A DNA stretch of 64,000 bases from assembly GCA_016278725.1 (NCBI GenBank), contig JADQBG010000006.1, positions 62,001 through 126,000 on the forward strand, given 5' to 3'. This DNA is from Actinomycetota bacterium (GTDB lineage Bacteria > Actinomycetota > Thermoleophilia > RBG-16-64-13). Shown here one piece after another: positions 48,257 to 62,983 of the stretch. Each line of letters begins with the position of its first letter. Positions within the stretch are counted from its first letter, which is position 1. A program made the translations under genes and the position numbers. The notes beneath the pieces were generated by a model. That model saw nothing but the letters and a program-made list of their open reading frames with translations, was not told the DNA's origin and made no database searches.

Positions 48257-48329
<73 letters not shown>

Positions 48330-48334
48330 CCTGA

Positions 48335-48365: not shown

Positions 48366-48492
48366 AGTAATGGCCGAGGCGGCCGGTCGGGTTGCCAACG
48401 TGGTTGCCAACGAGCTGGACGCGGGTGGACGATTCTCGCGGTCGTGAACCGCGCTGGGCGCCGGTTGGCTCCTCCCGTGGGCCCAAGAGAAA

Positions 48493-48555: not shown

Positions 48556-49566
48556 CTAACGCCAGGCATAGTCGGTGTAATCGTAATCGTTGCCGCCGTC
48601 GTATCTCAGAGTTTGGATGGTTACTCCGGTCGGCAGTTCCCATGCAAGCTCGGCACTGTACGCGCCTCCGGGACGTACGTCGGCTACTCCAAGCCTGTTC
48701 TCAATTGAGCCATACGCTGGAGACGTGTAGACCAAGCCGTCTGACCCCACCGCTTCGAAGTCATAGACATTTAAGTGCCAGTCGCTGGGCCCTCCATTTA
48801 CCGCCTCGAGGTGGACTGCGAGGAACTGCTTGCCCTCGTCCGCCCATTCAGTCGTGCTTGGATGGACATACGGAGCGTCGATCGTCATCAGGTACGGCCC
48901 CATGATTCGAAGGGTCTCTCCCCAGCCCGCTTCCATCCACTTAGTGGGGAGGTATTCCTGAAGGTTATAGAGCAACTGGGCGACCTCTTCTCGGGGCATC
49001 CTGTCCCAGGGGCTCAACTGCTCGTAATCGGGCAGATTCTGGTAAAGCATATTGTTATTGGCGATGGCTGCGTTTTGCCAATGATCCGGCGAGAATTGGC
49101 CCCACGGGCTGTAAAAATCATAAACAGTGGAATCGAGTTCGCCGGGGTAGAGGTTCTGCATCGCCCGGACCGACATGGTAATCGCCTGCGCCCTCGTGAT
49201 GTAGGCCCAAGGATTGTAGGTCGAGGCTGTCACGCCCTTGGTAATTCCATGTTTGTAGGCGGCCGCGACGAACTCGTGAGGGTAGAGAGTGGCGTCGTTT
49301 GATCCGAGGTCGGTGAACGGCGAGGTCATGCCCTCGGTGACTTGGATGTTCAGCATGCCCGCCGCCATCTTCGCGAACTGAGCACGCTTGACCCCATCAT
49401 CTGGTCCGAATGTACCGTCAGCGAAACCATCGACAACTCCCCATTCGCTGAGAGCGTTGATCGCCTCGTAGTTCGGGTGGCTCCCGGGCACGTCCGTGAA
49501 TGCCAGAGCCGGGGCGGTGAAGACCGCCAGGAGAATTATCGTTCCCAGAACCAGAGCTTTGGTCAT
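48556..49566 (-). CDS. Secreted SLH-domain protein with a C-terminal DUF4352-like domain
   Basis: 336 residues. Signal peptide (MTKALVLGTIILLAVFTAPA), then three SLH repeats: FTDVPGSHPNYEAINALSE then WGVVDGFADGTFGPDDGVKR, a second around ITKGVTASTYNPWAYITRAQ and a third, degenerate one to about residue 200. The C-terminal about 130 residues are a beta-sandwich with FLAVHLEAVNGGPSDWHLNV, like the DUF4352/TelA Ig-like fold. GAAAGGACG before the ATG. It would sit in the outer wall layer. It is the only one of the three SLH genes here with an unremarkable structure. Confidence 0.85.
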   Translation of the reverse strand: MTKALVLGTIILLAVFTAPALAFTDVPGSHPNYEAINALSEWGVVDGFADGTFGPDDGVKRAQFAKMAAGMLNIQVTEGMTSPFTDLGSNDATLYPHEFVAAAYKHGITKGVTASTYNPWAYITRAQAITMSVRAMQNLYPGELDSTVYDFYSPWGQFSPDHWQNAAIANNNMLYQNLPDYEQLSPWDRMPREEVAQLLYNLQEYLPTKWMEAGWGETLRIMGPYLMTIDAPYVHPSTTEWADEGKQFLAVHLEAVNGGPSDWHLNVYDFEAVGSDGLVYTSPAYGSIENRLGVADVRPGGAYSAELAWELPTGVTIQTLRYDGGNDYDYTDYAWR

Positions 49567-49699: not shown

Positions 49700-50251
49700 T
49701 TAGAGTCCGGTCTGGCTCACGCCATACTCAGCTTGCTCGCGTGTGAAGCCCTCGAACATCAGTTGCTCAACAAGGCCCGAGTGTGAGAAGGATGTGAAAC
49801 TAAGATAGTGTTCCGCAGATTTTGCCGCTTGATCTTTCCAGTTCACATCTAGATAGCTAGCAGCGAAATTAGCATCCTCGTTGGAAAAACCTTCGAACTC
49901 TAATTGCTCAATGAGGCCTGAGCGTGAAAACGCGGCGAACGAGAGGTAGTTCTGCGCCGATCCTATGGCGTTCTCTTGACTGCGTGTGAGGGTAGGCTCA
50001 GGTGTAGCGGTCGTCGTGGTGGTCGGTGCTACTGTGGTCACTGGAGCTTCGGTAGTAGGTGCCACTTCTATGGTCGTGGTGACCCTCTCAGTGGTGGTGC
50101 CTTCTTCTACCGCAGTAGCCTCGACCTCTACCACCTCAACCTCGCTTGGTTCTTCGGCCGGCTCATTTGGGCCGCCGAGGGCTCCAGCAATCCCTCCGAG
50201 GACCATCAGCCCGACAAAAATGATGGCTCCCCATTTCAAGATGCGTCTCAT
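49700..50251 (-). CDS. Ltp-type host-surface lipoprotein-family protein, superinfection-exclusion-like
   Basis: 183 residues from ATG 50251 with AAAGGAG upstream. One N-terminal helix (about 5-25), a Thr/Glu-rich linker (about 35-90), then two Ltp repeats of about 42 residues: ENAIGSAQNYLSFAAFSRSG then LIEQLEFEGFSNEDANFAA, and AKSAEHYLSFTSFSHSG then LVEQLMFEGFTREQAEYGVS. In phage TP-J34 the Ltp lipoprotein with this repeat blocks DNA injection by other phages. No lipobox Cys is visible, so it is held by a helix. It lies about 390 bases from the integrase, on the same strand. Confidence 0.85.
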   Translation of the reverse strand: MRRILKWGAIIFVGLMVLGGIAGALGGPNEPAEEPSEVEVVEVEATAVEEGTTTERVTTTIEVAPTTEAPVTTVAPTTTTTATPEPTLTRSQENAIGSAQNYLSFAAFSRSGLIEQLEFEGFSNEDANFAASYLDVNWKDQAAKSAEHYLSFTSFSHSGLVEQLMFEGFTREQAEYGVSQTGL

Positions 50252-50305
50252 CCGTACTCCTTTGCTTCCCGAGAGCCGGGACCTTGTTTCTGCAACCCGC
50301 TCCAT

Positions 50306-50639: not shown

Positions 50640-51830
50640 TTACCCCCCGAACGCCGCATCCATCGCACTAGCCGCCACCCGGTCGGCCCCGGGGAAGAGG
50701 TGCGCGTAGACCGAGAGGGTGAGGGAAACCTGGGAGTGCCCCAGGACCTCCTTCACGACCAGGGCGTCCACCTTCTGTGAGATGAGCACAGAAGCGCAGG
50801 AGTGACGTAGCTTATGCACCGGCCGTTCGGAGGGGAGGCCGGCGGCCTCGAGGATGCCTTTGAGCTCGTCGGTCACCCTCTGCGGGTCGATGGGCCCGCC
50901 GAACGGGTCCACGAACACAAGGCCCGAGTCCTCCCACTCAGGTCCCACCCGGAGCCGCTCCTCGGCCATCCGCCGGCTGTGCTCGCGCAAGGCCTGCACC
51001 GCCATGGCCGGCAGGGGGATGGTCCGCCGCGAGGAGCGCGACTTGGGCTCCACGAACACAAGCCCCTTCCCCGTCTGCCGCTGGAGCGACTGCATGACCG
51101 TGAGCGAGGCCCGATCCAGGTCCACGTCCTGCCAGCGAAGCCCGAGCGCCTCTCCCCGCCTAAGGCCGGTGAGGAGAAGGACCGTCCAGAGCGCCCGCAG
51201 GCGATCCTCGGCCACGGCCTTTAAGAGCAGCTCCCCCTGCTTCACCGTGAGAGGCACGACTGGCTGCTGCTCCTGCCGCGGCGCCTTGGTGAGCGCCGCC
51301 ACGTTCCGCGGAATGAGATCCCACTTCATCGCCTGCTGAAGCGCCATGCGTAGGGTGTTTCGGATCATGGCCACCCGCCGGGGAGAAAGCGCGGGCACCT
51401 CCCGCTTCTCCTTGCCCTTCCCCACCGTCTTCATCTGCGCGGCTTTCCGGTCGATGAGCTCCTGCACGTCCCGAATGGAGAGCTTGGTGAGGGGGATACG
51501 GCCCAGGTTGGGCTTCAGATGAACCTTGCACACCGAGGCGTAGGACTCGTAGGTGCCGGGCCGCACTGTCGCCTTCACGTGAAGGAGCCAGCGGTCGAGG
51601 AAGGCGTCCAAGCGCTCCCGGTCGTCCCCGGGCTCGATCCCGGCCTCCCGGGCCACCGCGACGGCCGCCAGTTTCTTGGCCACCTCCTGCCGCGTCTTCC
51701 CCGTGAATTTCTTGCGCTTGCGCTTTCCTTCGACGTAGCCGAGGTCGAGCATCCCCACCCAGACCCCCATCCCCTCGTGGAAGTAGATGGTGCCCTCTCC
51801 GTTTGCCCGTTTCCGCCTCCTGGTCGCCAT
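50640..51830 (-). CDS. int: Tyrosine-recombinase phage integrase
   Basis: 396 residues from ATG 51830. N-terminal AP2-like arm-binding part (NGEGTIYFHEGMGVWVGMLD), SAM-like core-binding part (about 60-165) and the catalytic domain with Arg224 (TGLRRGEALGLRW), Lys near 263, His339 and Arg342 (HKLRHS), His365 (LGHS) and Tyr375 (SVYAHLFPG). Integrates or excises the element. It reads away from the other element genes, next to the presumed attachment side; no duplicated core sequence could be found. A perfect palindromic operator sits 23 bases upstream of its start. Confidence 0.95.
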   Translation of the reverse strand: MATRRRKRANGEGTIYFHEGMGVWVGMLDLGYVEGKRKRKKFTGKTRQEVAKKLAAVAVAREAGIEPGDDRERLDAFLDRWLLHVKATVRPGTYESYASVCKVHLKPNLGRIPLTKLSIRDVQELIDRKAAQMKTVGKGKEKREVPALSPRRVAMIRNTLRMALQQAMKWDLIPRNVAALTKAPRQEQQPVVPLTVKQGELLLKAVAEDRLRALWTVLLLTGLRRGEALGLRWQDVDLDRASLTVMQSLQRQTGKGLVFVEPKSRSSRRTIPLPAMAVQALREHSRRMAEERLRVGPEWEDSGLVFVDPFGGPIDPQRVTDELKGILEAAGLPSERPVHKLRHSCASVLISQKVDALVVKEVLGHSQVSLTLSVYAHLFPGADRVAASAMDAAFGG

Positions 51831-51852
51831 AGCCAGGACCATACCACTTGCT

Positions 51853-51866
51853 TCGCAACGTTGCGA
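51853..51866. promoter_or_regulatory. Perfect 14-bp palindrome, candidate element-repressor operator
   Basis: TCGCAACGTTGCGA at the integrase promoter. The core GCAACGT recurs at 52555 and 52647 between the divergent repressor and Cro-like genes, so it is probably bound by one of them. Confidence 0.6.
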
Positions 51867-51884
51867 GTACAAAGATGCACAACC

Positions 51885-51898
51885 CGAACAAACGTTTG
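51885..51898. promoter_or_regulatory. LexA-type SOS box
   Basis: CGAACAAACGTTTG matches the Gram-positive/actinobacterial LexA consensus CGAAC-N4-GTTCG with one change, and contains the palindrome CAAACGTTTG. It lies between the integrase (minus) and the small plus-strand gene at 51958. Confidence 0.6.
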
Positions 51899-51957
51899 CT
51901 TTCTGTCCGCCGCCAGCGGTAGGCTATCGGTCCAGCAGAACCAGCAGGGAGGAAGCG

Positions 51958-52122
51958 TTGAGGGGAGCGGAAGACGAAACCAAGGAGTACGTGGAAGGTC
52001 GCGAGATCTTCCGGAACTTTGCCGACGACGTCGAAGAGAAGATGCACCCCGCCGATCCTATGGCGGAGTGGGGCGAGGCTTTGGTGCGCAAGATCAGGAT
52101 GACCCTGGAGCGGATGGGATGA
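51958..52122 (+). CDS. Small acidic protein of the integrated element
   Basis: 54 residues from TTG 51958 with GGGAGGAAG seven bases upstream. Charged and helical (REIFRNFADDVEEKMHPADP), ending VRKIRMTLERMG. No known domain. It follows the SOS box by 60 bases and ends six bases before the convergent repressor gene. Size and place fit an antirepressor or inhibitor of the repressor, but that is only suggested by position. Confidence 0.45.
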   Translation: MRGAEDETKEYVEGREIFRNFADDVEEKMHPADPMAEWGEALVRKIRMTLERMG

Positions 52123-52128
52123 GCGCCC

Positions 52129-52479
52129 TCAGGCGTTCTTCTTCGCCGCCGCCGCTGTCTGCTCCACCCGCCGGCGCGCCCGGATCTCCTCTAGGTCCTC
52201 AAGGTCGATCTCGCCGGAGGCGATCATCTCCCGGAGCATCTCCTGGGCCCGAAACTGCCGGTACTCAAGGAAGTATTCCGGCTCCGTCTCGAGGGCCTTC
52301 GCGAACTTCTCCAGCGTCTTGATGGAGCGGAAGTCCAAGGCGTGACCGCGCTTGCCGGAAAGATACGAGGAGACGGTAGAGGGGGAGACGTCCGCCTCAT
52401 ACATAAGCCGCGTGTCCGACCACTCCTTCTCGTCTAAGAGCTCCCGCAAAGATTCGTTCACCGGTTTTTGGCTCCGCAC
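52129..52479 (-). CDS. CI-like XRE-family repressor
   Basis: 116 residues from GTG 52479 (GAGGGAGAG upstream). HTH_XRE domain: NESLRELLDEKEWSDTRLMY then EADVSPSTVSSYLSGKR, with the recognition helix at SPSTVSSYLSGKR; a helical C-terminus (about 75-116) probably mediates dimers. It is divergent from the Cro-like gene, with CGCAACGT sites in between, the classical immunity switch. No LexA-like peptidase domain, so induction would have to act by another route. Confidence 0.85.
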   Translation of the reverse strand: MRSQKPVNESLRELLDEKEWSDTRLMYEADVSPSTVSSYLSGKRGHALDFRSIKTLEKFAKALETEPEYFLEYRQFRAQEMLREMIASGEIDLEDLEEIRARRRVEQTAAAAKKNA

Positions 52480-52552
52480 GGGTCTCTCCCTCGGTTAAGC
52501 CGCTCCTAGCCTAAGACTTTCCAAGAGGCAGCATACCGGTCCTGTCCGCCTT

Positions 52553-52659
52553 TTGCAACGTCGCGTTCGCATTTCCGCAAATGCAACGCAGGCGGCACAT
52601 GAATTCCCGCTCGATTCCGTCCGCACACTCTGCTAGGCTCAACTTCGCAACGTAGCAAA
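52553..52659. promoter_or_regulatory. Operator region between repressor and Cro-like genes
   Basis: Contains TTGCAACGTCGCG (52553-52565), ATGCAACGCAGG (52581-52592) and TTCGCAACGTAGCAAA (52644-52659). All share GCAACG with the integrase palindrome. The last one is 21 bases before the Cro-like start. Confidence 0.6.
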
Positions 52660-52679
52660 CACGACTATGAAAGGGAGAC

Positions 52680-52913
52680 ATGCGAAAAAGGAGAAGCGCG
52701 CTCCAGCGGGAGATCTACCGCTATAACGCGGAGCGCCTCGGAGAAGGGGAGGAGCTTATGAGCCAGCGCCGCCTCGCGGAGCTCACCGGCCTAGACAAGA
52801 CCACGGTTAACCGCCACGCCCGGCTCCCCGGAACCATCAAGGCCTCCCAGCTTCTGCTCTACGCCAAGGCGCTTCGCTGCCCGGTGGAAGACCTGGTGGA
52901 GGGTGAGTCGTGA
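52680..52913 (+). CDS. Cro-like XRE-family HTH protein
   Basis: 77 residues from ATG 52680 with AAAGGGAGA just before. EELMSQRRLAELTGLDKTTV then NRHARLPGTIKASQLLLYAK gives a complete XRE helix-turn-helix, with the recognition helix at DKTTVNRHARLPG, and the helical ending CPVEDLVEG. First gene of the rightward operon; the stop overlaps the next start (GTGA). Confidence 0.85.
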   Translation: MRKRRSALQREIYRYNAERLGEGEELMSQRRLAELTGLDKTTVNRHARLPGTIKASQLLLYAKALRCPVEDLVEGES

Positions 52914-53128
52914 GGATCGTAAACGACGAAGCGCCGAATGAGCTTCGACTTGCCCTTCGGGCAGAAGAAGCGGCCGCGGCCTTCGGCATCTCCCGGGCCA
53001 CCGTCTACGAGCTTGTGCGCTCCGGCGTCTGGCCGAGCTTTCATATCGGGCGGCTGCTTCGCATCCCGGTCTCGGGCCTTGAGGAGTTCATCGAGAAGCG
53101 CCTCACTGACGAAGAGGGCGAGCGATGA
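52910..53128 (+). CDS. Excisionase-like winged-helix DNA-binding protein
   Basis: 72 residues from GTG 52910. LRLALRAEEAAAAFGISRATVYELVRSG then VWPSFHIGRLLRIPVSGLEEFI is the excisionase/MerR-type HTH_17 domain (residues 12-65). It may act as the recombination directionality factor for the integrase, or as a transcription regulator. Overlaps both neighbours by four bases. Confidence 0.85.
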   Translation: MRIVNDEAPNELRLALRAEEAAAAFGISRATVYELVRSGVWPSFHIGRLLRIPVSGLEEFIEKRLTDEEGER

Positions 53129-54084
53129 GCGCCCTCGTGGCTGCCAAGACCAATGACCTCTCGCGCGAGGAGTGGCTCGAGGTGCGCCGCCAGGGTGTTG
53201 GAGGGAGCGATGCGGCCGCCATCGCCGGGGTCTCGCCTTTCGCCTCCAGGCTCTCGGTCTACCTCGAGAAGGTCCAGCCGGTCGAGGATGTCGAACCAAC
53301 CGAGTGCCAGCGGTTCGGCAATCTCCTTGAGGATGTCGTGGCGCGGGAGTTTGCCCGCCGCACGGGCTTTCGCGTGCGGCGGCGTAACGCCGTCCTTCGT
53401 CACCCGGAGCACCCCTGGATGCTCGCGAATCTGGACCGCCTGGTCTCAGACGGGGAGAGGGGCCCGGCCATCCTCGAGGTGAAGACTCGCTCCGCCTACG
53501 CGCGCTCGGCGTGGGAGGCCGGCGTCCCCTTAGACGTCCAGTATCAGGTGCAGCACTACCTGGCCGTCACCGGCTACTCCAGAGCCTACGTGGCGGTGCT
53601 CCTCGGGGGTTCCGACTACCGTCAGGCCCGGATTGAGCGGGACGAGGAGTTCATCGAAGAGCTCACCCGGCTCGAGCAAGCCTTCTGGTTCGAGCACGTC
53701 CTTGCCGGCGTCCCTCCCGAGCCGGATGGGAGCGAGGCCTCGAGCGTCTCCCTACGGCGCCTTTACCCAACCGCGGTTCTGGATTCCGAGGTCATCCTGC
53801 CCGACCACGCCGAGGAGCTCGTCCGAGAGCTGGCAGAAGCCAGGGCCGAGGCCAAGGCGAAAGACCAAGATGTCTCCCGCCTCGAAAACCAGGTGAAGGC
53901 GCTCATGGCAGACGCCGAGACCGCGTATCTCCCCGGCATAGAGCGCCCGGTCTGCACCTGGAAGAGCCAGACCCGCACCTCCATCGACTCAAAGGCGCTT
54001 CGCGCGGCCGAACCTGAAGTCGCCGCCCGCTTCGAGAAGACCACTGAATCGCGCACCTTCCGCTTCTCTCTAAAGGAGGACTAA
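53125..54084 (+). CDS. YqaJ/lambda-Exo-type 5'-3' exonuclease
   Basis: 319 residues. YqaJ viral recombinase domain: WLEVRRQGVGGSDAAAIAGV then SPFASRLSVYLEK (17-50), LANLDRLVSDG with the catalytic Asp (about 100), AILEVKTRSAYARSAWE with the ExK pair (about 112-128) and PLDVQYQVQHYLAVTGYSRA with the conserved Gln. The C-terminal about 100 residues are helical with a tail RTFRFSLKED. It resects double-stranded ends for phage-type recombination; the partner annealing protein would be expected nearby and the next gene is a candidate ssDNA-binding protein. Confidence 0.92.
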   Translation: MSALVAAKTNDLSREEWLEVRRQGVGGSDAAAIAGVSPFASRLSVYLEKVQPVEDVEPTECQRFGNLLEDVVAREFARRTGFRVRRRNAVLRHPEHPWMLANLDRLVSDGERGPAILEVKTRSAYARSAWEAGVPLDVQYQVQHYLAVTGYSRAYVAVLLGGSDYRQARIERDEEFIEELTRLEQAFWFEHVLAGVPPEPDGSEASSVSLRRLYPTAVLDSEVILPDHAEELVRELAEARAEAKAKDQDVSRLENQVKALMADAETAYLPGIERPVCTWKSQTRTSIDSKALRAAEPEVAARFEKTTESRTFRFSLKED

Positions 54085-54086
54085 CC

Positions 54087-54746
54087 ATGCTCTGGACCAA
54101 CAACGGCCAAACCACCTTCGAACAACCCCCGGCGGGCACCCACGTGGCCCGCTGCGTGCGCCTCGTCGATCTCGGCACGCAGAAGTCCGACTACCAGGGG
54201 GAGATCTCCTACCGCCGCCAGGTCTGGGTGGCCTGGGAGCTACCCACCGAGCGCATGACCGAGGGCGAGTACGTGGGCGAGCCCTTCCTTGTCTCGAAGT
54301 TCTACACCCAGTCCCTGCATCCCAAATCGAAGCTCCGCCAGGATCTCGCCAGCTGGCGGGGCCGGGACTTCACCGAGGAGGAGCTCCAGGGCTTTGATCC
54401 GAAGAGCATCCTCGGCAAAGGGTGCCTCCTCTCCCTCATCATCTCCGACACCGGAAGGGCCCGGGTCTCCGGCGTCATGGCGTTGCCCAAGGGCACGCCG
54501 CTTCCTGAGCAGGTCACCCCGAGCCTCTACTTCAGCCTAGACGACGACTACGACCCCGAAGCCTTCGAGGCGCTCTCCAAGGGCATCCGGGGGATCGTCG
54601 AGCGAAGCCCTGAGTATCAGGCCAAGGCGACGCCCGCGCCACGTCCTTTCGTGACGCCCGGTCAGGCCGAGCTTAAGAAGGCCACCCAGGCCGAGGCCGC
54701 TCCGCCGGCGGAGGAGCCCTGGGACGACGACAACCCCCCGTTTTAA
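54087..54746 (+). CDS. Phage NGO0469/OB-fold-like ssDNA-binding protein with SSB-type tail
   Basis: 219 residues. The body (AGTHVARCVRLVDLGTQKSD, YRRQVWVAWELPTERM, HPKSKLRQDLASWRGRDFTE) matches the phage family that includes NGO0469 and is considered replication/recombination related. A disordered linker (about 170-205, APRPFVTPGQ..) leads to the acidic C-terminal tip EEPWDDDNPPF, almost identical in type to the DDDIPF tip by which SSB recruits partners. Two bases after the exonuclease stop, so one operon. Inference: functions as the element's own SSB. Confidence 0.75.
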   Translation: MLWTNNGQTTFEQPPAGTHVARCVRLVDLGTQKSDYQGEISYRRQVWVAWELPTERMTEGEYVGEPFLVSKFYTQSLHPKSKLRQDLASWRGRDFTEEELQGFDPKSILGKGCLLSLIISDTGRARVSGVMALPKGTPLPEQVTPSLYFSLDDDYDPEAFEALSKGIRGIVERSPEYQAKATPAPRPFVTPGQAELKKATQAEAAPPAEEPWDDDNPPF

Positions 54747-54747
54747 G

Positions 54748-54963
54748 ATGCGCCGCTGTCACGGTCCTTGGACCGATCCTGAGACCGGCCTTACCGAGTG
54801 CCGCTTGGGCGGTGAGCTAGATGCTCCTTGCCCGAGTTGCGAAGGTGCGGGCCTGGTCCCGCACCTCCTGCTCGGGGTCCCCACCCGGGCCCGGCGGACT
54901 TGCCCGACCTGCGAGGGCGCAGGCGTGGTGGACGCCTGCCCCCTCTGCGAGGCTCGCGTATGA
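54748..54963 (+). CDS. Small DnaJ-type zinc-finger protein
   Basis: 71 residues with two CxxCxGxG motifs (CPSCEGAGL about 28-36 and CPTCEGAGV about 51-59) and a final CPLCEA, plus RCHG near the start, enough for one or two zinc sites. Such mini zinc ribbons are common in phage replication operons without assigned function. Start is one base after the previous stop; its TGA overlaps the next ATG. Confidence 0.7.
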   Translation: MRRCHGPWTDPETGLTECRLGGELDAPCPSCEGAGLVPHLLLGVPTRARRTCPTCEGAGVVDACPLCEARV

Positions 54964-55310
54964 GCTCTCCTGGCGCCCGCTCGCGAAACAAAGGCCAACG
55001 CGGAGAGAGGGAGGTCAGCGCGTTCCTTCGCGCCCGGGGCATCGCCGCCAAGCGGGGCTTTCAGTCCCGCGGCGGCGGGGCCGAGGAGCCGGACGTGGTC
55101 TGCGATCTCCCCAACCACCGGTTGGAAGTAAAGAGACAGGAACGCCTGAACATCTGGGCCGCCTTCGCCCAAGCAGACGACGACTGCGGTCCCGCTGATG
55201 ATGAGACCGTGCCCGCGGTGGTCTTTCGCCGCAACCGCTCTCCCTGGATGGTGTGCCTGAGGTTCGCCGATTATCTCGACCTCCTCGGCTACGAGGAGGA
55301 AGAGTCGTGA
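54960..55310 (+). CDS. Hjc-like Holliday-junction resolvase/PD-(D/E)XK nuclease
   Basis: 116 residues. KGQRGEREVSAFLRARGIAA then GFQSRGGGAEEPDVVCDLPN and HRLEVKRQERLN give Glu in helix 1, Asp in strand 2 and the ExK pair, the archaeal Hjc/phage resolvase pattern. C-terminal EE-rich end. Resolves branched DNA during replication or recombination. Overlaps both neighbours by four bases. Confidence 0.85.
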   Translation: MSSPGARSRNKGQRGEREVSAFLRARGIAAKRGFQSRGGGAEEPDVVCDLPNHRLEVKRQERLNIWAAFAQADDDCGPADDETVPAVVFRRNRSPWMVCLRFADYLDLLGYEEEES

Positions 55311-57376
55311 GCGGCGTCGTCTCTCTCGCCAAGCGCTACCGCCGCCACGGCTTTAACCTCCTGCCCATCGGCGAGGATAAGCGACCTCTGGGCCCCTGGC
55401 GCGATTGGCAGGAGCGCCCTCAGACGGCGCAAGATCTCCAGGCCATGCCCTGGCCGGAGGCCCTGGGTATCGGCGCCCTCTCCGGCGAGGTCTCCCGCCA
55501 CCGCTACTGCCTGGACTTCGACGGGGTGACCGATCCGCTGCTCCTCCAGGAGGTGGAGCAGCTTCTCGGCCTGCCTCCGGACTATGCCTGGAGTGTGACG
55601 ACCCCCGGTGGCGGTGCGCACGTCTGGATCACCGCTCCCCTTCTTGCAGAGCAGCTGAACGGCAAGGGCAAACTCACCGGCCGGCGTCCGGGCTGCGATC
55701 ACGTGGAGCTACGCGGCCGCGGCCACCAGACGCTCCTTCCCGGCTCAAAGCATCCCTCGGGCGGCACCTACGCCTTTGCCCACGCGGCGGGCCTCAGCGT
55801 GCCAGAGGAGCCGCCGGCCGAGGTGGATCCCGAGCTCGTGCTCCGGGTGGCCCGCTGGCAGGAGGAGAAGCAGGCGGCGGCACCGATCGAGCCCAGCCCT
55901 ACACCCTCCAGCGACCACCCCTGGGTGCAGGCCGCGCTTCGGGGCGAGACCGAGAAGCTCGCCTCAGCCCCCGAGGGCGACCGGAACAACCAGCTGAACC
56001 GAAGCGCCATGGCCCTCGGCTCGCTGCCGGCGCTCGAGCTCGGAGACGTCATGGCCGAGTTCCTGCCTACCGCCCTTCGGGTCGGCCTCGAGGAACGGGA
56101 GAGCCGCGCCACTATCAGAAGCGGCTTCGAGGCCGGGCGTCGACAGCCGCGCGCCATCCCGGAAAGGGAGCGGCCGCTCTCCCTCATCCGGTCGAAGGAC
56201 GATGCCCCCGACTCCGAGAGCCCCTACGAGGACTGGGCGAAGCTCTTCTCCGAGGAGAAAGAAGAGGAGGAGTGGGTCTATCCGGAGGTCCTCGCCAAGG
56301 GACGCGGTCACGCCGTCTTTGCCAAACACAAGGCCGGCAAGTCATTGCTCACCCTGTTCATGGCCGCCCAGATCGCTACCCGAGATGCCTCTTGCGTCGT
56401 CCTCTACCTCGACTACGAGATGACTAGGGACGATCTTCGGGAGCGCCTCGAGGACATGGGCTATGGGCTTCACTCAGACCTTTCCCGCCTAAGGTATGCG
56501 CTCCTCCCGTCACTGCCGCCGCTCGACACCGAAGCCGGCGGGGAGCGGCTCCTTGAGATGGTGCGCGAGCTTCAGCACGGCTTCCCCGAGCACCACCTGG
56601 TCGTCGTCATCGACACCATGAGCCGAGCGGTGGTGGGAGCGGAGAACGACGCCGATACCTTCCGCGCCTTCTACACCTACACGGGGATGAAGCTAAAGAA
56701 GGCGGGCTGCACCTGGCTTCGCCTGGATCACGCCGGCAAGGAGCTTGAGAAGGAGATGCGGGGAAGCTCCGCCAAGGGTGACGACGTCGATGTCGTCTGG
56801 CGGCTCTCGCAAACCGACACCGGCGTCGAGCTTAAGCGCATCGCCGCCCGCATGCGCTGGGTCCCGGAGAAGGTCGTTCTCAGGCGCCTCGACGACCTCG
56901 AGGGCCTCAGGTTCATCTCCGACGAGGAGTCCTGGCCTTTGGGCACCTACGAGGCGGCCCAGGAGCTCGAGGCCCTCGGCGTGCCCGCCGGTGCTTCCAA
57001 TCGCCAAGCCCGCGAGGCTCTTAAGGCGGCCGGTAGGAGCATGGCAAATAGCGTGCTGCGCTCCGCGGTCAGGTGGCGCCAGCGGAGCATTCCGCTCAAT
57101 CTCGGTGACAGGGCGAATTCCGCAAATAGCGGGTTCGGCACACCCCTCGGCACGCCGCGGCCCACCTCTAAGCCCCTTTCGGCACGCGAAGCGGCAGACG
57201 CTGAGAAACCCGCTGAAACAGCGGGACGGCACGCATTCGGCACGCCGCGGCACACCTTACCCGGCGATAGGGCGCAGGACCCCCCCTACGTAGTAGGGGG
57301 TCCCTCGCCCGCCCCAACCGACGATCCGGATGACCCCGATGAAGGAGGTGACACACCGTGGCGCGTGACCATTTAG
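55307..57376 (+). CDS. Primase-polymerase fused to a RecA-like (RepA-type) helicase/ATPase
   Basis: 689 residues from GTG 55307. N-terminal bifunctional primase/polymerase domain (about 1-195: GFNLLPIGEDKRPLGPWRDW, YCLDFDG with the first metal Asp pair, VTTPGGGAHVWITAP). A C-terminal RecA/RepA-type ATPase domain has Walker A AKHKAGKS (about 338-346), LYLDYEMTRDDLRERLE and Walker B VVVIDTMSRA (about 433-442), then LDHAGKELEKEMRGSSAKGDDVD, the arginine-finger region of RepA-like helicases. A winged-helix-like part follows and a low-complexity tail with FGTP repeats ends it. Main replication protein of the element. Confidence 0.9.
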   Translation: MSGVVSLAKRYRRHGFNLLPIGEDKRPLGPWRDWQERPQTAQDLQAMPWPEALGIGALSGEVSRHRYCLDFDGVTDPLLLQEVEQLLGLPPDYAWSVTTPGGGAHVWITAPLLAEQLNGKGKLTGRRPGCDHVELRGRGHQTLLPGSKHPSGGTYAFAHAAGLSVPEEPPAEVDPELVLRVARWQEEKQAAAPIEPSPTPSSDHPWVQAALRGETEKLASAPEGDRNNQLNRSAMALGSLPALELGDVMAEFLPTALRVGLEERESRATIRSGFEAGRRQPRAIPERERPLSLIRSKDDAPDSESPYEDWAKLFSEEKEEEEWVYPEVLAKGRGHAVFAKHKAGKSLLTLFMAAQIATRDASCVVLYLDYEMTRDDLRERLEDMGYGLHSDLSRLRYALLPSLPPLDTEAGGERLLEMVRELQHGFPEHHLVVVIDTMSRAVVGAENDADTFRAFYTYTGMKLKKAGCTWLRLDHAGKELEKEMRGSSAKGDDVDVVWRLSQTDTGVELKRIAARMRWVPEKVVLRRLDDLEGLRFISDEESWPLGTYEAAQELEALGVPAGASNRQAREALKAAGRSMANSVLRSAVRWRQRSIPLNLGDRANSANSGFGTPLGTPRPTSKPLSAREAADAEKPAETAGRHAFGTPRHTLPGDRAQDPPYVVGGPSPAPTDDPDDPDEGGDTPWRVTI
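57277..57303 (+). other. Strong hairpin within the 3' end of the helicase gene
   Basis: GGACCCCC..CTAC and GTAGGGGGTCC can pair over about 11 bp (one bulged C). It precedes the very good AAGGAGGTGA ribosome site (57341-57350) of the next gene, so it may modulate expression across the boundary. Confidence 0.4.
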
Positions 57377-57792
57377 CGCTGGTTCGAGAGCAGCTCCTCG
57401 CACACCACTGCCACGCCCACCTGGTGGAGGGTGAGCTCGTCGTCGAGCAGGTCTTCGGCGAGCCCGTCCCCGGCGAGCTCGCCGCTCTGGTTCGTTCGGT
57501 GAAGCCTGAGCTCACCGAGTGGCTCACCTGGGAGAACGACGCCGACGTCCTCTGGCGGGCGGTCCTACGCCGGCACGCCCACCGCGTGGATCTCGCCGAA
57601 GACGACGCCTTCCAAGCGTTCGTCCGCCGAGCGGAGCGGGCCCACGCTCGCCACGACCGCGCAGAGCTTGTGCGCTGGCTCCTCGCCATGGAGCGCCATG
57701 CCAACCAGACGGCCGACCGTGGCGAGGCTGGGAGCCGCTCCTTTGCCGGCCTCGACCGCTTCATGCGCGAGCCCTCGGGGAGGATGCTGTGA
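57358..57792 (+). CDS. Element protein of unknown function
   Basis: 144 residues from GTG 57358; AAGGAGGTGA, a full-length Shine-Dalgarno sequence, ends eight bases upstream. Helical, His- and Glu-rich: VREQLLAHHCHAHLVEGELV, PGELAALVRSVKPELTEWLT. The segment with WL..W before a charged helix resembles small phage proteins next to helicases but I cannot name a family. Overlaps the helicase gene by 19 bases and the next gene by four. Confidence 0.65.
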   Translation: MARDHLALVREQLLAHHCHAHLVEGELVVEQVFGEPVPGELAALVRSVKPELTEWLTWENDADVLWRAVLRRHAHRVDLAEDDAFQAFVRRAERAHARHDRAELVRWLLAMERHANQTADRGEAGSRSFAGLDRFMREPSGRML

Positions 57793-58328
57793 GAGGGCTC
57801 CGGGAGGTGGAGGAGCGGCACCAGGCCCTGGAGAGCCTGCTGCCCCTCCTTCACGTCCATCACGCCTACCTCGACCAGGTGCGCTCCGGCCTGGGTGGCC
57901 TGGCCCCCTCGGCTCCCGACGGTCCCCCGCCGCCGGCGCGAGAGGACCAGGACGAGCCCTGGGTGACGCAGGAGCGGCTTCTTGCCCGCGCCTACCGCCT
58001 GGACGAGGTGCGCCGGCTCTTTGCCCTCCTCGAGCACGTCCGCCCCTTGTGGTCTCTCGCCGTCTACTACGAGTTCGTCGAGCCCTGGCCGGTCTGGGAG
58101 CCCGAGCGCCGCGTCCTGCTCGCCCGTCTCGGCGTGCGCCTGATGGCGGCGAGCTGCCGGGGACCGCTTCCCACCTTCGCCCCGGCGCTGCCCAGGCGCC
58201 GCCCGGTGCGGGGGAGGGAGGAGGAGGTGCAGGCTCTCAGGGAGCAAGGCTGGCAGCGAGACCGGATCGCAAGGCACCTGAGGATGAGCGCGCGGGACGT
58301 CTCCCGGCTGCTCCGTGAGGCGAGCTAG
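57789..58328 (+). CDS. Element protein with C-terminal helix-turn-helix, possible late regulator
   Basis: 179 residues from GTG 57789. N-terminal helical part with REVEERHQALESLLPLLHVH, a Pro-rich linker (about 45-60), and a C-terminal HTH: REEEVQALREQGWQRDRIAR then HLRMSARDVSRLLREAS (about 143-179), of the sigma-70 region 4/ArpU style. Its place at the end of the early operon and just before a second SOS-box promoter fits a regulator of late genes, but this is inference. Confidence 0.65.
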   Translation: MRGLREVEERHQALESLLPLLHVHHAYLDQVRSGLGGLAPSAPDGPPPPAREDQDEPWVTQERLLARAYRLDEVRRLFALLEHVRPLWSLAVYYEFVEPWPVWEPERRVLLARLGVRLMAASCRGPLPTFAPALPRRRPVRGREEEVQALREQGWQRDRIARHLRMSARDVSRLLREAS

Positions 58329-58335
58329 GAGCACC

Positions 58336-58376
58336 CGAACAAGCGTTCGTACCATCGAGGGCCGATTTGATAGAAT
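58336..58376 (+). promoter_or_regulatory. Perfect LexA-type SOS box with downstream -10 element
   Basis: CGAACAAGCGTTCG (58336-58349) is an exact match to CGAAC-N4-GTTCG. TAGAAT at 58371-58376 is a good -10 box, and the SOS box covers the expected -35 region. The HNH gene starts about 70 bases downstream. Confidence 0.7.
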
Positions 58377-58444
58377 GAATTTAGAAGCTTACGAGAGAGG
58401 CGTTCCAACCGGGGCGCCTTTTCTTTTGCCCGAAGGGAGAGGCA

Positions 58445-58789
58445 GTGCCCACCCACCCGCCGCGCGCCTGCCCCGTCTGCCGCCGCCTCTCTTGCTCTGA
58501 CGCTGCCCACCAGAAGCGCGTCGACGACTGGCGTGCCCGCCGCGCCCGCCGCCCCTACAACCACCCCGAGCGCACCTACAAGGCCGAGCAGGTGAAGGCC
58601 TGGGTGCTTGAGCACGGCTGGGTCTGCCCGGGGGACGAGTACCATGCCGCTCACTCCTCGGGCGATCTCACCTTCGACCATGAGGTGCCGGTGAGCCTGG
58701 GTGGCGATCCCTTGGGGCCGGGCCGCGTGGTTTGCCGAAGCGCGAACAGCCGCCGCGGGAACGGTCGCCGGCGCCGCGGGAGCGCCTAG
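58445..58789 (+). CDS. Phage-type HNH endonuclease
   Basis: 114 residues from GTG 58445 (GAAGGGAGAGG upstream). CPVCRR at the start, FDHEVPVSLGG with the first active-site His, and VVCRSANSRRGNGRRR with the conserved Asn and Arg-rich tail. Small HNH proteins of this type normally sit beside the terminase and help package DNA at cos ends. Here no terminase follows: it is the last element gene seen. Confidence 0.85.
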   Translation: MPTHPPRACPVCRRLSCSDAAHQKRVDDWRARRARRPYNHPERTYKAEQVKAWVLEHGWVCPGDEYHAAHSSGDLTFDHEVPVSLGGDPLGPGRVVCRSANSRRGNGRRRRGSA

Positions 58790-58906
58790 AAAAGTCTACG
58801 ATCCACGGCTCCCGCCCCGCGTCCTTAGCCTTCCTCACACGCCCGCGAAATAGGCCGGTTTTGTGGGGGCCTCTCTACTGTATCGATTGACGGGCGGCGC
58901 GGCGCG

Positions 58907-59773
58907 TCAGTCAGTGTGCGCCGGGCTGGAGGCGCTGAGCTCTTGAAGCACTCGGGCGCTCGCGAGGAGTTCGTTCAGTCGAGAGACGAAGCGCGCGGCG
59001 GGCGCCCCGTCGATGAGATCGTGGTTGAAAGACAGCGTAAGGCAGAGATGCTCGCGCTCTTCCAGCCGGCCTTCAACGAGTACGGGGCGGGGGGCGATCC
59101 CACCAACAGCCACGGTCACCGTGGCACTCGTAAGCGGCAAGAGCCAGAGAGACCCCGAGGCGAACATGCCCACTGCCGTCACCGCGACGACCCCGAACCT
59201 TCTCTGCATGGAGATGCTCTGTGAGGCAAGTCGCATGAAGGAGCGCATGAGGACCTTCGGCACCAGCCTGACCCAGGAGGTTCCCGTGACGGCGCCCATG
59301 CGCTCGTCCTGCCGCGCCTGTACCTGTCTGATCTCCTCGTGGATCTCCCGGTAGGACTTGCGCTGGGCATGTTGGACGCCCATGGGCTCCGGTACGCTCT
59401 CGCCTCCCATCTCGCGCTCGACGAGAACGCTGATGGTCACGTCTTCGAGGATGACGGTGCGTCTGCCTCGGCGGAAGGCGTTGAACTCCGGGAAGTCCTC
59501 TAGGGTGCGAGCAAGGCAGGCGACGACGTAAGCGGTGAGCGATAGTCGCTCGCCCGTCTTAGCTAGGTGTTCGGCCAGCACCCGCCTCGGCGCGGAGATG
59601 TCGGCCTCGGTCAGCATGTGGATGGTGTTCTTTTCGCGACCCACTGCTGAGCTTGCGGCCACCATGCGGCGGTTCGCGCTTGTCGGAAGACTTCGGTAGC
59701 TAGAGTTCACGACTCTCAAGTTCTCCACTGGCCGGGGCAGCTCCTCTAGCCCTCGTTCTCTCACCCCGATCAT
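58907..59773 (-). CDS. Catalytic-domain-only E2 acyltransferase (2-oxoacid dehydrogenase family)
   Basis: 288 residues from ATG 59773. Chloramphenicol-acetyltransferase-like fold with LTAYVVACLARTLEDFPEFNAF and the catalytic motif SFNHDLIDGAPAARF (His251 within HxxxDG). Lipoyl and E1/E3-binding domains, normally in the first about 200 residues, are missing; the N-terminal part (RRMVAASSAVGREKNTIHML) enters the catalytic domain almost at once. Its acyl donor would thus need to come from another protein. A long upstream extension overlaps the MBL gene and is not used. Confidence 0.82.
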   Translation of the reverse strand: MIGVRERGLEELPRPVENLRVVNSSYRSLPTSANRRMVAASSAVGREKNTIHMLTEADISAPRRVLAEHLAKTGERLSLTAYVVACLARTLEDFPEFNAFRRGRRTVILEDVTISVLVEREMGGESVPEPMGVQHAQRKSYREIHEEIRQVQARQDERMGAVTGTSWVRLVPKVLMRSFMRLASQSISMQRRFGVVAVTAVGMFASGSLWLLPLTSATVTVAVGGIAPRPVLVEGRLEEREHLCLTLSFNHDLIDGAPAARFVSRLNELLASARVLQELSASSPAHTD

Positions 59774-59859
59774 GGAGACGTGATGCCCACCATTGATCTC
59801 GTTCCCTTGGAGGCACCTCGACCCGGCTCCGTATAACCCTCGCAAGATGGTCCTCTTCC

Positions 59860-60696
59860 TCACCTGGTGAGCCCCCGGGAATCGCGCTCCGTGGCCCGGG
59901 TCTTTGCCATCCGGCTGCCGGCGGCCAGAGCGCGCAGCCCGGCGGCGGCCTCCTCGCCCGCGACGGGAACCCCGTGTCCACCGGCAATGACCTGGGGGTC
60001 TAGCGCCGCCACAGAGGCGATCGACTTCTCGGCCACGCGACGGCTCCATGTGGCGACCCACGGTGGGCCTGAGACGCACTGCCTCCGCTTCGCCAGACCG
60101 CGGAGCGAGTTCAGGTCCAGGGTCACGACTGCGTCTCCTGTGATCAGCACTCCGTCGGCCGGCCGAGAGAAGGCCACATGGCCCGGTGTGTGACCGGGCG
60201 TTGGCACCAATTCCCAGTCGGGAAGCCCTGGGATCTTCCCCCGCGGATCCAAAGCGTGGACCATCCCTCGAAGACTCGCGCGGGTCACCGTGGCCTGCTG
60301 TCGCCGCTCGCCGGAAAGACCCAGCAGGGGCAGGATGAGCCAACGGTCGAGTGGATTGGCGTAGTCGGCGAACACTCGCATACCGCCGATGGCCAGAGGG
60401 AGTTCATCCGGGTGCACCCATATCTGCACGCCCCAGCGTTCGGCGAGAGCGCGGGCCGAGCCGGCATGATCGGGATGATCGTGGGTGAGCAGAACGGCTG
60501 CGGGATGGCAGGCCTTTCCAAAGAGCTCTTGCGCGGCGCGCGCGATCACCTCGGCCTGGCCTGCGGTAGCCGCGTCGACCAGAACCCAATCATCTCCGGA
60601 CTCGACAAGGTAGACGTTGGCCCTCATGAGTCCGCGCCCGACCGGCAGCCAGTGCACCCCAGGCGCAATCTCTCGCGCTAGAGTCCCTGCCTTCAT
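59860..60696 (-). CDS. MBL-fold metallohydrolase
   Basis: 278 residues from ATG 60696. Metal motif THDHPDH (71-77; HxHxDH), a later His in PTPGHTPGH and Asp in LITGDAV, followed by the last His in VIAGGHGVPV. Broad family (glyoxalase II, lactonase, beta-lactamase-like). The N-terminus GVHWLPVGRGLMRANVYLVE is like actinobacterial members of unknown substrate. Start overlaps the stop of the flavodoxin gene by four bases. Confidence 0.92.
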   Translation of the reverse strand: MKAGTLAREIAPGVHWLPVGRGLMRANVYLVESGDDWVLVDAATAGQAEVIARAAQELFGKACHPAAVLLTHDHPDHAGSARALAERWGVQIWVHPDELPLAIGGMRVFADYANPLDRWLILPLLGLSGERRQQATVTRASLRGMVHALDPRGKIPGLPDWELVPTPGHTPGHVAFSRPADGVLITGDAVVTLDLNSLRGLAKRRQCVSGPPWVATWSRRVAEKSIASVAALDPQVIAGGHGVPVAGEEAAAGLRALAAGSRMAKTRATERDSRGLTR

Positions 60697-61226
60697 CGTT
60701 CGCCCTCGGCCGGCGACTCTGACAATTCCCTTCCCACGGCCATCGCCCACTCCTCGACCGCCGGCCAGTCCCGAAAATCTCCCTCCGGTAGTGTGGCGCG
60801 GGCGGCCGGCAGCAGGGTGAGCGCCCGGTGCGCTAGGCCCAATCGGCGGTGTTCGAGCCGACCGTAGAAGACGGCGTGGTTTCGGGGATGGAGGGAAGCG
60901 TCGAGTTCGGCGGCCTCCTCGGGGGCGGCCTCCTCCAGCTTACCTCCTGGCAAAGTACTGGGGCCGAGAGGGCCACTGCTAAATAGCCAGACCGGGCGGT
61001 CCTTCAGCCCCTCCTCCCGGCGGGCGAACTTCAGCGCCGCCTTCATCCAGTGTCCGAAGTAGACCGCGCTACCCAGCAGGACCGCATCATACGAGGAGAC
61101 GTCCCCCACTTTTTCCACGGGCAGGACCTCTGCCTGGCGGCCTGCGCCGCGCACAAAGCCCGCCACATGCTCCGCCAACTCTGCGGTCGACCCGTACTTG
61201 CTTGCGTACGTCACAAGGACAGACAT
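60693..61226 (-). CDS. Flavodoxin-domain protein (HemG/menaquinone-dependent type)
   Basis: 177 residues from ATG 61226, with GGAGG eight bases upstream. Phosphate-binding loop TYASKYGSTAELAEHV (5-20), FMN-isoalloxazine loop GSAVYFGHWMKAAL and PVWLFSSGPLGPS, the pattern of HemG-like flavodoxins (protoporphyrinogen oxidase or other redox). Overlaps and is co-transcribed with the MBL-fold gene. Confidence 0.88.
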   Translation of the reverse strand: MSVLVTYASKYGSTAELAEHVAGFVRGAGRQAEVLPVEKVGDVSSYDAVLLGSAVYFGHWMKAALKFARREEGLKDRPVWLFSSGPLGPSTLPGGKLEEAAPEEAAELDASLHPRNHAVFYGRLEHRRLGLAHRALTLLPAARATLPEGDFRDWPAVEEWAMAVGRELSESPAEGER

Positions 61227-61367
61227 TCCACACCTCCGGGCGCTGGCTCCTGTCTTCAGTGTAGTCCCCGCTCCGACCATCCGCCCCGGTCGACTGGCCG
61301 GTTGGGCCGATACGCCGGGTGGCTGTCGAGGGTACGACGTAGACGCCCGGGCGGTGATCACGGGAGC

Positions 61368-61541
61368 CTAGGCTGAACTTGGCAAAGAGCCCCTGGCCGT
61401 TGTGGGGTTAAGCGGAGTAGTCGCTGCTCTTTTTGCGTACCGGTCCTGCGGCATGAACGCGATGACTTGTCGGCGGTCGTCTCGCTCCGGTTCGATCTTG
61501 GCCACCCAATCGAACCCGACACCGGCGAAGTCTCGCCGCAC
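61368..61541 (-). CDS. Possible small protein, 57 codons
   Basis: GTG 61541 with GGAGGGG eight bases upstream. Reads VRRDFAGVGFDWVAKIEPER then DDRRQVIAFMPQDRYAKRAA, charged and without domain match. The only support is the ribosome site and an isolated position. Treat as tentative. Confidence 0.3.
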   Translation of the reverse strand: MRRDFAGVGFDWVAKIEPERDDRRQVIAFMPQDRYAKRAATTPLNPTTARGSLPSSA

Positions 61542-61695
61542 TGATTACCCCTCCGTTGTCGAGGGAGCTCAGACCGAAGTCTGAATCATCGTATCGCTGC
61601 ACACCCAGCGGTGAAAGCACCCTTGCTGCTCGTTCCCATTCACGCTTGCGCCGAGCTGCATCCTCGATTCATCGCACAAGATCCTCATCAGTTAT

Positions 61696-61727
61696 GGCGG
61701 CGGGCCTTCGGGCTCGCCGCCCTTTTT
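61696..61727 (+). terminator. Strong Rho-independent terminator without an obvious gene
   Basis: GGCGGCGGGCC and GGCTCGCCGCC pair over about 11 bp with TTCG in the loop, and are followed by CTTTTTCG. It points to a plus-strand transcript ending here, yet no protein gene precedes it on that strand. Could end a small RNA or a lost gene. Confidence 0.75.
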
Positions 61728-62107
61728 CGTCGTTCGATCGCGACGCTGCTCAGTCTTCGTGAGGAGCCTACGTACGTAGTCTCGCGCGACGGTAATAGAA
61801 ACCGTTGATGGGGGCTTGCGAGCGTCCTAACAGCTTCCGGGAGTTCCTTGCGTAGTCTGGGCAGCGACGAACGGTCGCCAGTCTTCCTTCGAGCGACGCC
61901 TCAGTCCACAAATCCTGAGCCAACCCTTTCCCCACTGGCTCGTGAGCCTCCGGCTTCCGCTAGTGCGGCCGGTCTCACTTTCTCTCTGTCACCCCGGACG
62001 CAGTCACATCCGCCGGGGGACTTCCTGCGAGCCCTTGTCTTGGCCCGCTGTACCGCCCTGAAGGACGAATGACGGTCTTTCAGTGGATACCTATTGCGCT
62101 CCTAGAA
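61728..62107. other. Gene-free stretch
   Basis: About 380 bases with no supported gene, terminator or repeat. It ends at the operator cluster of the GntR-type gene. Confidence 0.4.
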
Positions 62108-62154
62108 GTAATACAGTATTACTGTAATATCCGAATACAGGATGACGGTATTAC
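62108..62154 (+). promoter_or_regulatory. Palindromic operator cluster before the GntR/FCD gene
   Basis: GTAATACAGTATTAC (62108-62122) is an odd-centred perfect palindrome; CTGTAATATCCGAATACAG (62122-62140) is a second inverted repeat, and GTATTAC (62148-62154) repeats the half-site. They are 77-123 bases before the regulator start and probably bind it. Confidence 0.65.
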
Positions 62155-62230
62155 GATGTGGAACTACTCCTTAGCCTAGTTACGTTCGCTAGAAGCGAAG
62201 GGTTTCCGGGGGCCTGAAGGAAGGTGTGCT

Positions 62231-62944
62231 TTGGCCAGAGTTATTGGGAGCGGGGAGCAGTCGGCGCGAACTCCCGCACCTCTTCGACAAGAGATAAGTG
62301 AGCTACTGCGGGAGGAGATCGCGCTGGGGGAGTTCGCGCCCGGGGATCGACTGATCGAGCGGGAACTATGCGAGCGCTACCAGGTAAGCCGGACTATCGT
62401 GCGGGAGACGTTGCGCTTGCTCGAGGCAGAGGGCCTAGTAGCCATGGTGGCTAATCGTGGCCCAGAAGTGGCTCGGGCAACGAGAGAAGACATCGTCGGC
62501 CTGTATGAAGTCCGGGGGGCGTTGGAGGGGCTGGCGGCGAAGTTGTTCGCCGAGCGGGCAGGTATCGAAGACCGTCGCGAACTCGAACAGGCCGTCGACC
62601 GCGCCGAGGAGGCGATGGAACTTGGCGATCGGCGAGCCGTTCTTGCCGCGAAAGACGCTTTCTACTCGATACTTCTTCGAGGTTCTGAGAACGAGACCCT
62701 CTCGTCGGTACTGCGAACGCTCTATGTCCGAACCCAGATGTTGCGAGGGATATCCCTCAGTTCTGCTGGGCGGGGACCTCATACCATTCGGGAACTGCGT
62801 CGAGTACTGGCGGCTATTGCGGCGTCTGATTCCGAGGAGGCCGGTAGGGCGTGCGAGGAGCACGTAAGGGCTGCGGCAGCAGTGGCGCTTCAGCAATTGG
62901 ACCGCGTGGACGGGGATATCCGCAAGCTTTTCACCGATACATAA
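62231..62944 (+). CDS. GntR-family (FCD subfamily) transcriptional regulator
   Basis: 237 residues from TTG 62231, with GAAGGAAGG seven to nine bases upstream. N-terminal winged helix ISELLREEIALGEFAPGDR then LIERELCERYQVSRTIVRET (22-62), with the recognition helix at SRTIVRETLRLLE; the FCD effector domain follows (about 90-225, VGLYEVRGALEGLAAKLFAE..). FCD regulators usually sense small carboxylates. Adjacent downstream gene (hydrolase) is the likely target. Confidence 0.92.
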   Translation: MARVIGSGEQSARTPAPLRQEISELLREEIALGEFAPGDRLIERELCERYQVSRTIVRETLRLLEAEGLVAMVANRGPEVARATREDIVGLYEVRGALEGLAAKLFAERAGIEDRRELEQAVDRAEEAMELGDRRAVLAAKDAFYSILLRGSENETLSSVLRTLYVRTQMLRGISLSSAGRGPHTIRELRRVLAAIAASDSEEAGRACEEHVRAAAAVALQQLDRVDGDIRKLFTDT

Positions 62945-62983
62945 GTTGCTTCTGGCGAAGCAGGGATGAAGGGGGGAGTCAGG

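Follow-up and report, generated by a model that had tools for sequence, protein, structure and literature searches.

A probable phage-derived cargo island at a tRNA-Lys gene of a Thermoleophilia actinobacterium

What kind of element carries the control and replication genes of a temperate phage and continues into metabolic genes where a terminase would be expected? This question is raised by a cassette of 13 genes, from a tyrosine integrase to an HNH endonuclease (positions 50640-58789), in a stretch of 64,000 nucleotides from an Actinomycetota bacterium of the class Thermoleophilia (contig JADQBG010000006.1, positions 62,001 to 126,000; assembly GCA_016278725.1). The whole stretch is called the window below. 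A previous interpretation based on the letters and open reading frames (the sequence-only reading) had taken the cassette for a compact integrated element resembling a phage satellite. Our comparisons indicate that it is probably part of a larger phage-derived island with cargo and no particle genes, inserted at a tRNA-Lys gene. The contig of the window (C25) ends at window position 68438, and the other end of the island appears to lie on a second contig (C16) of the same host genome (G000). Protein calls are based on Pfam and PHROG profile matches and the tRNA call on ARAGORN.

The cassette and its sister copy

The genes listed by the sequence-only reading exist where it had placed them, most of them with Pfam or PHROG support (Table 1). 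Three starts were corrected (PDDEXK nuclease 54960, primase-polymerase 55307, helix-turn-helix (HTH) protein 57789), each with a 4-bp overlap. Adjacent open reading frames overlap by GTGA or ATGA or almost touch, as in a tight operon.

A second copy was found by scanning genome contigs with an alignment of the helicase. This sister contig, JADQCE010000021.1 (29,066 bp; loci L055 and L183), has 13 of 13 cassette genes in the same order, with 77-96% amino acid identity and no internal stops. The ratio of nonsynonymous to synonymous divergence (dN/dS), estimated pairwise from two intact copies only by a Nei-Gojobori-type codon comparison (own script), is 0.04-0.38 over the 13 genes, and dS is 0.24-0.56. 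The cassette is more than a series of chance reading frames because all 13 are intact in a diverged copy with low dN/dS. The sister contig is filed under Halothiobacillus sp. Soudan_12_1, a gammaproteobacterial metagenome-assembled genome (MAG) from the Soudan mine. That it is Halothiobacillus DNA was rejected: its flanks are about 87% identical to contigs of G000 and the 55-mers at its ends recur at the ends of G000 contigs. The contig is probably misbinned, and the sister copy apparently comes from the same metagenome as the genome of the window.

No terminase, portal, capsid or tail gene was recognised from position 48331 to the contig end (68438) or on the sister contig, nor any structural or lytic phage gene in 34 kb of the island's own sequence or the 29 kb of the sister. 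The earlier description of integration, immunity, replication and recombination genes without terminase, portal, capsid and tail thus stands. A terminase or capsid module past a displaced boundary, which would have contradicted it, was not found in the sequence read.

The cassette also has candidate CI operators. The motif GCAACGTNGC has three sites in the 68 kb read, all within the cassette (at the 5' end of int and in the CI-Cro gap) and all kept in the sister; our own estimate from simple base counting predicts about 0.5 exact sites. A slightly longer operator pattern with one mismatch tolerated gives 5 matches vs 1.8 expected.

The two ends of the island

The limits 50640-58789 did not hold. 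The element starts in the tRNA-Lys gene about 2.3 kb left of int and extends past 58789, and instead of being compact it appears to form a unit of at least 34 kb with metabolic and restriction cargo and a right end on another contig. C25 has the arrangement tRNA-core-P' arm (attL) and C16 the arrangement P arm-core (attR). An exact copy of the 3' 20-mer of the tRNA is found elsewhere in the genome only at C16:22042-22061, with a one-mismatch copy on C8. The arm-type repeats GGTTGCCAACG do not occur in shuffled sequence. They adjoin the core in C16 and in JADQCE010000021.1, and in G001, the only genome of the same genus that was compared, they lie right of attR. Both ends of the island are represented, the intact tRNA on C25 and a displaced 3' fragment on C16, and the two contigs would be joined through an unassembled stretch, X.

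The evidence for X comes from the sister contig. It shares its first 55 bp with the end of C16 and its final 55 bp with that of C25, and both times identity stops at exactly 55. Exactly k shared bases at contig ends are expected of a de Bruijn graph (here k = 55) in which two paths enter one edge. The contigs therefore appear to come from one assembly and to run into a shared X. A livM gene leads into X and an aldehyde oxidoreductase gene leads out of it, no less than 10 kb from the HNH gene. The missing 3' part of livM and 5' part of the oxidoreductase gene are at no contig end of the host genome, and a 36-mer from the livM end was not found in viral contigs. The island measures about 34.0 kb on C25 and C16 plus X, and the sister 29.1 kb plus X.

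The left end of the sister matches the end of C16 (aldehyde oxidoreductase, FrhB) and continues with a XamI-type restriction system and a HEPN gene. These are followed by P arm, core, P' arms, a transposase, lipoprotein-like genes, the cassette, GntR, hydrolase and ABC genes, and the right end matches the end of C25. The sister thus carries an attP-like junction (P arm-core-P' arm) with both ends joined, and is therefore circular or in tandem.

The cargo lies on both sides of the cassette. In slot 1, between attL and int, the sister has an IS481-type transposase and lipoprotein-like genes instead of the SLH-domain protein. The slot 2 insert after the HNH gene is missing in the sister except for a 47-bp patch at 61689-61735. 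From GntR onwards the cargo has 87% nucleotide identity to the sister up to the final base of both contigs, and beyond the window it consists of branched-chain amino-acid-type ABC transporter genes up to the end of C25. C16 carries the C-terminal part of the aldehyde oxidoreductase, FrhB, an HTH_17 protein, an Mrr-type nuclease and type I restriction genes (HsdRSM). The restriction slot, which adjoins the P arm and attR on C16, is swapped: HsdRSM there vs the XamI-type system in the sister.

A self-contained satellite of about 8-10 kb, reaching from int to HNH within or beside a larger island, would agree with the abrupt end of sister homology after the HNH gene (58869), with the variable sequence on both sides, and with the size and gene content of satellites. 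It is nevertheless unlikely: no convincing direct repeats surround 50640-58870, a degenerate search right of the HNH gene gave no copy of the core, and the arm sites and core are at the tRNA-Lys gene 2.3 kb away. Furthermore, the GntR-ABC cargo is common to the sister, whose joined ends enclose it. An 8-kb unit with att sites of its own in the window was rejected.

The tRNA-Lys gene has received other elements. G001 has the same left flank up to this gene, then a different 8.6-kb element with perfect 47-bp repeats, then a stretch resembling C16, integrase relic included. Positions 58790-68438 of C25 left no trace in G001, and C16:22100-36009 has only short repeats and weak scattered matches there. 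The locus is not conserved in all relatives, contrary to what immobility would have predicted. The relative lacking the element, with which the sequence-only reading had proposed a comparison, exists in G001, but its site is not empty. Truncated relics of related integrases on C16 (L008 18096-18809; L009 2038-2401) lie beside the displaced tRNA-Lys fragment, one of them with 90% nucleotide identity; they are older insertions at the same place. The different insertions at one tRNA-Lys gene, at least three in two genomes, therefore mark it as an integration hot spot. The evidence that the island moves consists of the joined-end junction, the hot spot and the slot swaps rather than observed transfer.

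Comparison with known elements and competing explanations

The closest gene order is that of temperate tailed phages. Viral contig L110 (IMG/VR 3300042337_000195) has int and CI on the minus strand, then Xis, RusA, PrimPol and HNH, followed by TerL, portal, protease and capsid (PHROG support for all calls except the protease). Streptomyces phage mu1/6 has the order int-repressor-Cro-Xis-exonuclease-...-helicase-...-TerL, and its gp21 is homologous to the AAA_25 helicase of the window (34%). The cassette shares the order int-repressor-(Cro)-Xis-recombination-PrimPol/helicase-(HNH) with both, up to the HNH gene where L110 begins TerL. While these phages run on into TerL, portal, protease and capsid, the window has cargo.

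That the order ends where TerL starts in complete phages could also be explained by a cryptic prophage left without its late genes and now decaying at its site, and integrase relics of older elements are present at the hot spot (C16, G001). We consider this improbable in view of the 13 genes intact in both copies under the constraint described above (dN/dS 0.04 for the integrase and 0.08 for the excisionase, at a dS of about 0.5), the conserved candidate operators and the joined-end junction in the sister.

Phage-inducible chromosomal islands (PICIs), including the SaPI type, resemble the island in their leftward int, repressor, rightward xis and primase module, in accessory genes near int, and in that no structural or lytic genes were seen. 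The integrase-repressor-Xis-primase order described for PICIs (PMC6092414) is present in the cassette. On the other hand, the island reaches at least 34 kb and includes metabolic cargo, has a RecE/SSB/PDDEXK set and an HNH gene, and uses an att site common to another element type. The att site of a PICI is unique to its family and never occupied by a prophage (PMC6092414). The tRNA-Lys core of the window is also used in G001, by an unrelated element that may itself be a PICI type or a reduced prophage. None of the scanned proteins matched a Pfam or PHROG profile for TerS, phage interference or capsid size; not every PICI has a TerS gene. Of the capsid, portal, terminase and HNH genes of capsid-forming PICIs, only HNH is present in the sequence read. 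Membership in the PICIs is thus not established: the order fits, but the exclusive genes were not recognised and the att site also serves another element. Of the proposed composition of a phage-inducible island or reduced prophage, the phage-type early genes without particle genes are supported.

Actinomycete integrative and conjugative elements (AICEs) pair an integrase with a replication protein, of which Prim-Pol is one type (PMC3218068). A tyrosine integrase (PF00589), an Xis-like HTH protein, Prim-Pol (PF09250) and an actinobacterial host are shared with the island, which could accordingly be an AICE or mobilizable element moving by conjugation. This has little probability, as no FtsK/SpoIIIE-type Tra, relaxase or type IV secretion system was recognised among the C25, C16 and sister-contig proteins that were scanned, CI, Cro, RecE and HNH are immunity, recombination and nuclease genes of phage type, and AICEs were found only in Actinomycetales in the survey (PMC3218068). 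On the sequence available, the island is neither a typical PICI nor a typical AICE.

Tycheposons are tRNA-anchored tyrosine-recombinase elements with replication genes and metabolic cargo. As far as seen, the island has the same tRNA anchor, tyrosine recombinase, replication genes and metabolic cargo, a likeness by description only, and the hosts are different. Tycheposons are listed as a proposed satellite family (PMC11389934).

Compact elements in the Thermoleophilia MAGs UBA2241 (L059/L046) and UBA6103 (L058) share an integrase (33-35%), regulators and an AAA_25 helicase (49-51% identical) with the cassette. They differ in having a TerS-like HTH protein and TerL, and no RecE or Prim-Pol domain was matched in them. 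Those at L046 7764-15555 (UBA2241, DDYF01000006.1; beside tRNA-Met) and L058 7451-14171 (UBA6103) have a TerL ATPase (phrog_7579, about 1e-55) and no portal or capsid seen after it; the UBA6103 copy adjoins an apparent prophage with its own TerL.

A full prophage with its late genes inside the unread X, to which the complete and constrained early arm would belong, is very improbable given the livM and oxidoreductase genes at the borders of X, their distance from HNH, the terminase directly after HNH in L110 and the lack of an HK97 capsid gene in the assembled genome.

We therefore favour the phage-derived tRNA-Lys island, which resembles a satellite in its way of working: it brings its own integration, immunity and replication genes, and particle genes are missing from the sequence read. 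The cassette would be its control and replication half, and the place of the late arm would be taken by GntR, hydrolase, ABC transporter, X, the aldehyde oxidoreductase C-terminus, FrhB and a swappable restriction system. CI may bind the GCAACGTNGC sites and silence int and the rightward operon. Induction would lead to excision by Int and Xis, replication by PrimPol and recombination by RecE and SSB. For transfer the island would depend on others, most likely on a co-resident or infecting phage that packages it; the HNH gene, the candidate activator and the 80-bp block may have been kept for such packaging. Packaging by a helper phage is a tentative proposal. More speculative is a new family of cargo-carrying satellites in Thermoleophilia-like actinobacteria, in which an early-arm chassis kept by selection bears exchangeable metabolic and restriction cargo where the late arm had been and is carried in helper capsids through its own HNH/cos region.

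Several points weigh against this interpretation. The dS of the flanking cargo (0.26-1.19) is comparable to that of the cassette and gives no sign of recent movement. An excised circle and a tandem array both fit the sister contig, and the genome of the window might even hold such an array. The join C25-X-C16 rests on the graph signature and not on direct reading, and with X unassembled the total size of the island and part of its content are beyond the sequence read. As to packaging, no HK97-type capsid gene was found in the assembled host genome, and a search of viral contigs with part of the 80-bp block gave no match.

A phage-type lysis/lysogeny switch with a replication and recombination module appears to be under selection in an element without particle genes as far as readable, and transport, redox and restriction genes are carried in their place. 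If helper packaging is true, it would be a route for metabolic operons to spread among uncultivated subsurface actinobacteria. The locus also suggests that the real ends of an element are recoverable from assembly-graph signatures when the second att site is on another contig.

Individual features and neighbouring elements

Table 1. Features of the island in the window (window positions; dN/dS against the sister copy)
Feature	Position	Strand	Evidence or remark
tRNA-Lys(CTT), integration target	48257..48331	+	ARAGORN
attL core, 3' part of tRNA-Lys	~48287-48331		longest shared form 48285-48331
P' arm, two arm-type repeats	48390..48412 (starts 48390, 48402)	+	GGTTGCCAACG
SLH-domain secreted protein, variable cargo slot 1	48556..49566	-	PF00395 8.5e-24
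Ltp-type superinfection-exclusion lipoprotein, cargo slot 1	49700..50305	-	PF07553 1.1e-26; phrog_15667 'superinfection exclusion' 1.2e-36
Tyrosine integrase	50640..51872	-	PF00589 (Phage_integrase) 8e-26; 96% amino acid identity to sister, dN/dS 0.04
Candidate CI operator at int 5' end	51853..51866		palindrome CGCAACGTTGCG
Small acidic protein, 54 aa, no assigned function	51958..52122	+	intact in sister, dN/dS 0.04
CI-like repressor	52129..52479	-	HTH_26 5e-7; phrog_8 2e-8
CI-Cro intergenic region	52553..52657		two candidate operators at 52555, 52647
Cro-like regulator	52680..52913	+	HTH_26 2e-6
Excisionase-like HTH_17 protein	52910..53128	+	PF12728 7e-13; phrog_66 1.3e-7; dN/dS 0.08
YqaJ/RecE-like exonuclease	53125..54084	+	PF09588 5.8e-35; phrog_434 2.4e-101
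Putative single-strand DNA-binding protein (SSB)	54087..54746	+	phrog_862/6599 (families of no assigned function) 2e-8/1e-6
Small zinc-finger (CXXCXGXG-like) protein	54748..54963	+	PF00684 3e-6, below cut-off
PDDEXK nuclease / Holliday junction resolvase-like	54960..55310	+	PF24608 (PDDEXK_15) 1e-7; phrog_244 3.9e-19
Primase-polymerase (PrimPol) fused to AAA_25 helicase	55307..57376	+	Prim-Pol PF09250 4e-18; PF13481 5e-22
144-aa protein, no assigned function	57358..57792	+	intact in sister, dN/dS 0.27
C-terminal HTH protein, candidate late-gene activator	57789..58328	+	weak: phrog_836 'late transcriptional activator' E 0.0015
HNH endonuclease	58445..58789	+	weak: phrog_144 E 0.001; dN/dS 0.13
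Non-coding block closing the homologous cassette	58790..58869		80 bp; 95% identity to sister, lost abruptly beyond the block
Copy-specific insert (acyltransferase, MBL-fold protein, flavodoxin), variable cargo slot 2	58870..62207
GntR regulator and alpha/beta hydrolase, start of conserved cargo	62231..64000	+

The putative SSB has no Pfam match and is assigned because an acidic C-terminal tip of SSB type is present in both copies (...WDDDNPPF, in the sister ...WDDDDLPF, with DDD..PF in both). Its predicted structure is of low confidence and no fold was read from it, and a search of solved structures gave no relative of this protein or of PrimPol. The PrimPol-helicase has relatives in viral contigs and phages; a first scan of viral contigs using PrimPol alone gave none, and a plasmid collection gave short matches to PrimPol and nothing else. 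The candidate activator has a helical C-terminal HTH in a low-confidence structure model and had no match when searched in phages.

The Ltp-type lipoprotein (49700-50305) between attL and int is a possible exclusion gene against other phages.

The tRNA-Lys core serves two element types, the island of the window and the capsid-bearing element of G001. The latter (G001:C7; L038 10331-18985; 8.6 kb) encodes a tyrosine integrase, a replication initiator, an ATPase, HNH and a single HK97 capsid gene (PF05065 3e-34). Neither terminase nor portal nor tail was seen in it, and it resembles a minimal capsid-bearing satellite.

Another integrase element is found near tRNA-Phe on contig C6 of the same host genome as the window (L010 7020-16000), with an integrase 38-41% identical. 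It carries HTH, P4-type primase and ParB-methylase-like genes and, after them, genes of ubiquitin-like/JAB/ThiF type (by eye only).

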